From Sinosporangium album (GTDB taxonomy: Bacteria; Actinomycetota; Actinomycetes; Streptosporangiales; Streptosporangiaceae), in contig NZ_FNCN01000006.1 of NCBI RefSeq assembly GCF_900100605.1, positions 26,476 to 90,475 of the forward strand: a stretch of 64,000 bases of DNA, written 5' to 3'. The position numbers and the translations under genes were made by a program. Of the stretch, positions 46,814 to 55,193 are shown one piece after another; within the stretch, counting starts at the first letter, position 1; each line of letters begins with the position of its first letter. The notes beneath the pieces were generated by a model that was given only the letters and a program-made list of their open reading frames with translations, ran no database searches and was not told where the DNA came from.

Positions 46814-47200
46814 TGGTGGAGGTGGCGGGAATTGAACCCGCGTCCTTCAACCCCAAGTCAGGGCTTCTCCGGGCGCAGCCTGCTGTGCTTTTCTCAGCCC
46901 CGGCGATCACACAGGCGAGTCGCCGACGGGCTCAGCCACTGTCAGTTTTCCCTTCCGCCCCCGTGGCCGGGTCGGTCGGTTGAGCCTCCTAGCGATGCCA
47001 GGTCCGGGCCGGAGGCGCTCCCGGGCTGACAAGGTGCTACCTCGCTGCTTAGGCGGCGAGGGCCAGGTTAGCCTGGCTGACCTCAGTGCGCTTAGAGTTG
47101 GCACTTGTTGTTTGCGGTCACAGGATTAACGAGGTTATGTCCGCAGTCCTCGGCCCGCTTCTCCTCACTTGCAAAGTCGAAGTCGAAACCGGTCACCCCC
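46814..47200 (-). ncRNA. ssrA: tmRNA
   Basis: About 387 nt on the minus strand. The 5' end GGGGGTGACCGGTTTCGAC pairs with the 3' end CACCTCC before an encoded CCA (46814-46816), forming the tRNA-like acceptor. T arm GGGTTCAATTCCC type is visible at 46825-46845. The tag reading frame lies at 47049-47102: ANSKRTEVSQANLALAA then TAA, ending in the protease-recognition L-A-A. It rescues stalled ribosomes and tags nascent peptides, working with SmpB, whose gene lies 2.4 kb upstream. The tag start A-N-S-K-R-T-E is like other Streptosporangiales. Confidence 0.96.
47049..47102 (-). other. tmRNA-encoded proteolysis tag
   Basis: Resume codon GCC at 47102-47100 and stop TAA at 47051-47049 give the 17-residue tag ANSKRTEVSQANLALAA. 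The end A-L-A-A is the degradation signal for ClpXP-like proteases. At 17 residues it is longer than most bacterial tags. Confidence 0.93.
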
Positions 47201-54495: not shown

Positions 54496-54556
54496 CGGGC
54501 GTGTTGATGGCGACGCTTCGCGTCGCGGCGAGGGGGCTCTTGACCCGGATCTGATG

Positions 54557-54664
54557 GCGACGCTTCGCGTCGCGGCGAGGGGGCTCTTGATCCGGTGCTT
54601 TCCCTCGTCGCTCTGGTCGCTGCGCTCCCGACGCTCCTCAGTCCAAGCACCGGCGCCCCCTCGC
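54557..54664. repeat. Structured 108-nt element, copy A
   Basis: Starts with a 7-bp hairpin GCGACGCTTCGCGTCGC (54557-54573). Then an outer stem GCGAGGGGG (54575-54583) with CCCCCTCGC (54656-54664), an internal loop CTCTTGAT / CG, and an inner stem CCGGTGCTT (54592-54600) with AAGCACCGG (54645-54653), closing a 44-nt apical region. The same design recurs in copy B with compensatory changes. Confidence 0.75.
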
Positions 54665-54889
54665 ACTCCCAGGCCTGACGACTCCCGAACAGAAACGGGC
54701 CAACACGGCCGGATCCCGAACGGGAGCAGGCCAAGGCGAGCGACTTCCGGATAGGAACAGGGCGACCGGATAGGAACAGGGCGAATCGACCGACTTCCGA
54801 AACGGGAGCAGGCCAACACGGGCGGCTCCCGATACCTTGGCCCGCCGCGACGGCCGACTCCCGACACGTTGGCCAAGCAGTATTTGATT

Positions 54890-54997
54890 GCGCGCCTGCG
54901 GCGCGCGGCGAGGGGGCTCTTGACCCGGTGTCTTCCCTCGTCGCTCTGGTCGCTGCGCTCCCGGCGCTCCTCAGTCCAGACACCGGCGCCCCCTCGC
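54890..54997. repeat. Structured 108-nt element, copy B
   Basis: Same length and layout as copy A: hairpin GCGCGCCTGCGGCGCGC (54890-54906), outer stem 54908-54916 with 54989-54997, internal loop, inner stem CCGGTGTCT (54925-54933) with AGACACCGG (54978-54986), 44-nt apical region. Three of seven pairs in the first hairpin and two of nine in the inner stem differ from copy A by double, pair-preserving changes. Confidence 0.75.
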
Positions 54998-55193
54998 ACT
55001 CCCAGGCTGGACGACTCCCGAACAGAAACGGGCCAACACGGCCGATTCCCGAACGGGAACAGGCCAACGCGAGCGACTTCCGGATAGGAACAGGGCGAAT
55101 CAGCCGACTTCCGAAACGGGAGCAGGCCGACACGGCCGGCTCCCGAAGGGGGTAGGGCGGGGGCGGGGTTAGCCGCCCCCAGGGTGGTTCGGG

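Follow-up and report, generated by a model that had tools for sequence, protein, structure and literature searches.

In the 64,000-nucleotide stretch of Sinosporangium album DNA analysed here (the window), one intergenic gap holds copies of a repeat of about 120 bp, which we identify as a mobile, MIRU-like element whose long fold covaries, and not as a REP/BIME element. It is distinct from the MIRU in sequence, in length and in a small hairpin, hp1. We consider it probable that the account holds as a whole, namely that this is a non-autonomous mobile element with one folding strand which, in relatives of the host, hands over the start codon of the gene it enters.

The gap is convergent, measures 698 bp and lies between genes which by eye encode a lipoprotein and an NAD-glutamate dehydrogenase, and the units sit in it alongside a partial tandem copy (Table 1). 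Minus is the folding strand in the window. The two full copies form a 217-nt direct repeat with 90% identity at a spacing of 333, and a short third copy, mentioned in the earlier note, is present. The paired changes which the note had pointed out are likewise there in the window sequence, GCGACGC/GCGTCGC against GCGCGCC/GGCGCGC in the first hairpin and GTGCTT/AAGCAC against GTGTCT/AGACAC in the inner stem.

Table 1. Repeat units, their structural parts and the flanking repeats in the window (positions and strand refer to the window)
Feature	Position	Strand	Remark
Full-length unit 1	54551-54670	minus	120 model positions; minus is the folding strand; contig C6, 81026-81145
Full-length unit 2	54884-55003	minus	contig C6, 81359-81478
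Partial third copy, 44 nt	54505-54548	minus	47-nt tandem period
Content of third copy	54505-54548	minus	restricted to the 3' part (inner-stem end, one arm of the outer stem, small hairpin and linker)
Unit 1, small hairpin hp1	54557-54573	minus	loop C(GAA)G on minus strand
Unit 2, small hairpin hp1	54890-54906	minus	loop C(GCA)G on minus strand
Unit 1, outer stem, 5' arm	54655-54664	minus	partner 54575-54584
Unit 1, outer stem, 3' arm	54575-54584	minus	
Unit 1, inner stem, 5' arm	54645-54653	minus	partner 54592-54600
Unit 1, inner stem, 3' arm	54592-54600	minus	
Unit 1, apical region	54601-54644	minus	Watson-Crick steps between GA/GA mismatches, closing GC(GCA)GC
Unit 2, apical region	54934-54977	minus	same pattern as unit 1 apex
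Degenerate ~30-bp flanking repeats, CCCGAACGGGAACAGGCC type	54684-54864	none	apparently a separate repeat family
Second block of degenerate CCCGAACGGGAACAGGCC-type repeats	55017-55146	none	

Repeats of the CCCGAACGGGAACAGGCC type (up to 4 mismatches) also occur within 500 bp of 16 of the 27 core matches in the own genome, some of them sharing a place, in a flank scan that was mis-centred for locus L046 and off-centre for L040; in the remaining parts of six of the 27 core-match loci they were found once each. An Rfam search of the window matched only a tmRNA gene at 46814-47200 on the minus strand, away from the units, and the same search of six element loci, at E values up to 5, returned only two unrelated matches, both below the gathering score. 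A known RNA family was set aside for the unit, for which neither the window nor the six loci gave an Rfam match above gathering score. A description of the ~120-bp element was not found in the open-access PMC literature, preprints aside.

On both strands the predicted folds of the two window copies are better than those of dinucleotide shuffles, the RNA fold z-scores of copies 1 and 2 being -3.00 and -2.89 on the plus strand and -3.92 and -3.46 on the minus strand, and the DNA fold of copy 1 on the plus strand giving a z of -3.87. We aligned the 23 full-length copies of the own genome and built the model R1 from them, omitting L045, L046, L053 and L056, in which one half is missing or foreign. 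In this alignment 98.8% of the stem cells pair, against 37-46% when the partners are slid, and covariation amounts to 0.202 against 0.080 after shuffling. Changes on both sides were seen in 9 of 36 pairs; the shuffles averaged 6.9, and 13 of 500 came up to the observed number. Pair types were no more numerous than in the shuffles (123 of 500) in these 23 copies; copies within one genome are related to each other, which bears on such covariation counts. Further counts came from 62 distinct rows of several genera, in an alignment fitted to the model and including weak partial matches: 93.7% of cells paired against 76.5% shuffled and 32-46% slid, covariation was 0.360 against 0.101 shuffled and 0.025-0.036 slid, and 32 of 36 pairs had changed on both sides. 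Two basal pairs of the outer stem are often broken in this set, one in 26 of 49 cells and the other in 27 of 58. The compensating stem changes in both sets bear out the proposal, made earlier from the two window copies, that selection acts on the folded unit.

The apex proved to be a ladder in which the steps CT, G, GC, GG and GC alternate with GA opposite GA, and which is closed by GC(GNA)GC. Two of its steps covary among the 23 own-genome copies, step 34-64 (G-C 17, C-G 5, unpaired 1) and step 37-61 (G-C 15, A-T 3, G-T 1, unpaired 4), and eight GA/GA mismatch pairs, which on the plus strand would read as T.C mismatches, are retained in 22-23 of the 23. The apical region had been described as nearly unchanged; this holds for the GA/GA pairs, but the apex is itself folded and the steps between the mismatches covary. 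The mismatches also bear on an explanation without any selection on the fold, in which the palindrome is maintained by template switching. Quasipalindrome correction can indeed yield compensating changes in perfect stems, yet it should have erased the GA/GA mismatches; as they are retained, we take the fold as selected and regard palindrome maintenance by template switching as highly improbable.

Among 216 unique copies, 152 have the apex GCGNAGC, N being A in 68, C in 64, G in 12 and T in 8, and in 121 of the 152 it is flanked by GA on both sides; ten copies have AGC(YT)GCGA instead and 54 neither type. The small hairpin could be placed in 121 of the 216, and 98 of those have a C(GNA)G loop. 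Conservation of the core letters is no independent evidence for copies that were found through the exact core pattern, such as those of Kribbella pratensis below. GNA triloops are known from DNA, and the CUUG tetraloop is a further known loop type. The GNA loops thus lean towards a DNA form of the folded strand, while the AGC(YT)GCGA apices and the inner stem, where G.U exceeds A.C (85 against 35 of 1512 cells, two positions contributing 63 of the 85), lean towards an RNA form. A hammerhead-like reading of CTGAGGA was dropped, as by eye only a two-way junction is present.

The search of related genomes that the earlier note had proposed returned the unit in the host's family and in other actinomycetes. 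The own genome (7.06 Mb in 97 contigs) has 27 core matches with up to 3 mismatches and 0 matches to the reversed pattern. BLAST with the 124-nt unit gave matches in 14 of 60 genomes and model R1 in 71 of the 150 genomes sampled from the family, the own genome being counted in both; per-genome copy counts from BLAST and from R1 are lower bounds. In a sample of the class R1 matched 9 of 246 genomes, eight of them from the host's family. R1 is thus narrow and the exact core pattern is wider in reach, although it misses variant copies. The pattern matched at least 120 stretches, and the matches listed include Kribbella, Actinomadura, Streptosporangium, Herbidospora, Microtetraspora and Acrocarpospora as well as Actinophytocola, Virgisporangium, Catellatospora, Streptomyces, Gordonia amarae and others; the viral contigs searched gave 1 match. 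Exact copies number 14 in the own genome, 0 in G001, the only same-genus genome, and 1-58 in 11 Kribbella genomes, and the reversed core pattern was absent from all 25 genomes counted.

Several unusual copies were noticed on the way. A Kribbella-type copy, with a GGTCAT base and a coupled antisense frame, occurs in Actinomadura barringtoniae (L189) and is a candidate for horizontal transfer. In four composites (L093, L137, L177 and L228) one element lies inside the apical GNA loop of another; the junction GGGAGC|CC recurs unchanged in different records, and the composite may thus have spread as such. In L045 and L053 of the own genome a foreign 5' half, GAAGGCTTGAGCACTGAGG, replaces the stem arm, which makes them chimeras with another repeat. 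The Streptomyces copies L190, L194 and L206 are without an evident hp1, have CTGAGCGGGRGG downstream instead and are placed after ATGAGC.

To compare filled and empty sites, we ran joined-flank probes of four Kribbella sites against the 11 genomes of this genus and fetched 30 loci, among which the four sites had 2, 5, 8 and 6 empty orthologues with filled ones beside them. The Kribbella insert is 119 bp between GTCAY copies, and the sites show one GTCA-type motif when empty and two when filled. At the L160 site the nearest empty orthologue reads GTCATTACC, which equals the right flank of the filled site, and five of the eight empty orthologues have GCCA. Remnants were seen as well, a 7-bp footprint in L232 and an 11-nt piece of hp1 plus linker in L216. 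In the host's family the L065 site has element-free orthologues (L264, L267 and L268) and the L060 site three orthologues without the element and a fourth, L266, that keeps hp1 and linker only; the L063 and L067 sites gave no clean alignment. No clear target duplication was seen at four sites in two genera of this family, where the left ends are not clean. Furthermore, of 15 relatives searched for the window gap, eight could be measured at both ends, and in these eight the gap is free of the unit and spans 17, 17, 25, 66, 86, 157, 182 and 259 bp between the hit ends. In G001 and G002 it is ~1.2 kb long and by eye holds another gene; the anchors of the remaining relatives were one-ended or unread. 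The empty sites in Kribbella and in the family, together with the unit-free gap of the eight relatives, favour the mobile palindromic element that had been suggested as one reading of the repeat, and on these sequence comparisons the element appears clearly to be mobile; empty sites alone fit insertion as well as excision.

The Kribbella sites share a further property. The outer stem begins there with GGTCAY, which is complementary to an RTGACC start codon whose frame reads out of the element, gene starts being inferred throughout from open frames and not from annotation. We analysed all 33 exact-pattern copies of Kribbella pratensis VKM Ac-2574 (G180, the genome with locus L130). TCAY stands at the stem base in all 33, and in 32 of them the frame from this start is open across all 62 fetched codons. 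A second TCAY follows past the element in 26 copies and is missing in 7; of the 26, 23 have a start-to-start distance of 2 mod 3. From the displaced start a frame runs through the whole element and ends in the TGA of the new start (ATGA/GTGA) in 23 of the 33 copies, the other 10 being without a frame from the displaced start; a 24th coupled frame, outside these 23, begins in L392 at another upstream GTG. In a mixed set the coupled frame was found in 20 of the 22 copies having both sites, 9 of the 31 copies being without the right GTCAY and outside this count. The distances of 119, 122 and 131 fall on 2 mod 3 without exception; 118 and 121, the distances of the two copies that fail, fall on 1 mod 3.

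The strand of the coupled frame differs between lineages. The 34 Kribbella-type copies, which include the one Actinomadura record L189, have an antisense frame in 25 cases against 3.1 expected from shuffled interiors, and a sense frame in 1 against 0.5. For the 160 copies of other lineages a sense frame was found in 20 against 4.9 with shuffled interiors, 140 being without one, and an antisense frame in 1 against 1.0. Nine of the 20 sense cases belong to Actinomadura and the remainder to Microbispora, Actinophytocola, Actinoallomurus, Planotetraspora, Virgisporangium, a MAG and five further genomes. In the own genome none of 22 copies has a coupled frame, the window copies being likewise without one. 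The earlier statement that no protein is coded thus stands for the own genome, but relatives carry an open coupled frame.

A cis-acting structured RNA, such as a regulatory leader, a terminator or a stability element, repeated by chance, would account for the covarying fold and for the start codon covered by a stem in Kribbella. However, the fold is kept whether the mRNA carries the folding strand, as in the 20 sense cases, or its complement, as in the 25 of 34 antisense cases, which argues that the fold serves the element and not the gene. Moreover, all four arrangements of the element (E) and its neighbouring genes occur among the 88 copies whose flanks were long enough (+ E + 28, - E - 16, + E - 12, - E + 8; a simple gene caller placed 23 others of this set inside a called ORF and left 1 undecided), and orthologous Kribbella sites differ by presence and absence. 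We therefore think a cis-acting RNA unlikely, and return to a mobile element whose movement would depend on an enzyme supplied in trans.

REP systems depend on a Y1 transposase, and a likeness to REP/BIME elements had been suggested for the units. These elements and their RAYTs resemble the present case in being palindromic intergenic repeats, often with tens of copies per genome. In a REP/BIME-type element moved by Y1 (RAYT), or a MITE derived from IS200/IS605, hp1 and the adjacent RTGAC would be the guide and GTCAT the cleavage site. In non-autonomous IS200/IS605 derivatives the guide sits beside a hairpin, and the guides of IS608 are the basis for expecting a complement there. Hairpins do lie towards both ends of the element. 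Of 27 Kribbella-type copies with a left GTCAY, 23 have its exact complement just 5' of hp1, as a guide would show and as a short sequence 5' of the last hairpin complements the flanking pentamer in IS200/IS605 derivatives. The idea of a guide comes from this observation, although the pairing may persist simply as part of the stem; L175, one of the four exceptions, was clipped by the copy finder, and the right-hand site has drifted in some Kribbella-type copies. Y1_Tnp was found in 58 of 150 genomes of the host's family, including the own genome with 4 matches. On the other hand, Y1_Tnp was found in 0 of the 11 Kribbella genomes, with their 1-58 copies each and polymorphic insertions, and in 2 of 23 element-bearing genomes. 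The element also differs from REP/BIME in its start-codon sites and its longer structured unit, and from the IS200/IS605 derivatives in its long central fold. Since Y1 is missing from the 11 Kribbella genomes with their polymorphic insertions, and since the start-codon target and coupled frame fit MIRUs better, a REP/BIME nature is not supported and movement by a Y1 enzyme seems improbable to us.

Constant 3' ends and 5'-truncated partial copies would be expected of a SINE-like retroelement, the RNA of which is copied by a reverse transcriptase. Several partial copies do retain hp1 and the linker while the 5' part is missing, and the excess of G.U over A.C in the inner stem also speaks for it. 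Against it, RVT_1 was found in 0 of the 11 Kribbella genomes, and some partials resemble halves split by nested insertion, or tandem duplications. Nested and tandem copies weaken a constant 3' end with variable 5' truncation as a mark of retrotransposition, and we hold a SINE-like origin to be quite unlikely. The own genome has four RVT_1 matches, on contigs C52, C64, C42 and C73. Clustering of 813 ORFs from 121 loci gave no widely recurrent ORF beside the copies, the largest cluster being present in 12 loci and the next in 8.

MIRUs, which serve to type mycobacteria, also occur as tandem copies, a trait they share with the present element. Supply and colleagues reportedly placed them, in 1997, at DTGA sites, and we know of no mobiliser or structural constraint for them. 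According to a 2025 review (PMC12548453, citing Supply et al. 1997), MIRUs appear mobile, enter start codons and have an inner ORF coupled at -4 nt. Start-codon sites and an ORF coupled at -4 nt, its translation being predicted, were found in the relatives of the host and not in its own genome. With a MIRU-type query guided by primer 3 of PMC10117815, the exact MIRU pattern turned up in 8 of the 246 genomes of the class sample, all from one genus; the MIRU sequence GATGCAGAGCGNAGCGATGAGGAG had 0 matches in the own genome and its family members among the 246. Thirteen of 24 MIRU-type copies pass the same coupling test. Their sense strand has the predicted apex CA-GA-GC(GNA)GC-GA-TG (z -2.17, 4 of 200 shuffles being as good), with N as A in 16, C in 5, G in 2 and T in 1.

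Both are thus short repeats that sit at RTGA start-type sites and contain an ORF closing in ATGA/GTGA, and both have a GA-GC(GNA)GC-GA apex with variable N in a predicted nested pattern. They differ in that the start-to-start distance is 50 or 53 in coupled MIRU-type copies and mostly 119-122 in the element, that neither the CTGGACTGAGGA/GACGAGGGAAG core nor hp1 was seen in the 24 MIRU-type copies, and that the Kribbella copies of the element are antisense to the gene. Owing to the common start-codon sites, coupled frame and apex, the element would work like a MIRU; as sequence, length and hp1 differ, we do not file it as one. Common descent of the two is possible.

Combined together, these results suggest the following course of events. 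One strand, the minus strand in the window, would fold into a small hairpin and a long, interrupted one, whether as RNA or as single-stranded DNA, and an enzyme supplied in trans would recognise this fold. In Kribbella and some other lineages the element would land on RTGA start codons; in Kribbella the insertion would leave GTCAY, as read on the folding strand, in the form of a short direct repeat. The element would re-create a start codon at its own edge, and the displaced old start would open a frame of about 40 codons that crosses the element and stops at the TGA of the new ATGA or GTGA. If the start-type sites are used as starts and the frame is translated, ribosomes would pass on to the gene by the 4-nt overlap, as described for MIRUs. 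The window copies, with no coupled frame, in a convergent gap and next to a partial tandem copy, would be non-coding derivatives. It is also conceivable, though we hold it doubtful, that the element belongs to a new class of nucleic-acid-guided mobile elements, kin to MIRUs, with the folded strand as intermediate and an enzyme outside the families searched here. The RTGAC beside hp1 would then pair with the start codon to be entered, and the basal stem seen after insertion would be a record of that pairing.

Soil actinomycetes thus appear to harbour a MIRU-like element with up to 58 copies per genome, polymorphic between sister species. With start-codon hand-over in either orientation and a covarying fold, what moves such elements becomes a question testable in non-pathogenic strains. 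If the coupled frame is translated as predicted, this would be a natural case in which an insertion swaps the start codon of a gene and yet keeps a route for its translation.
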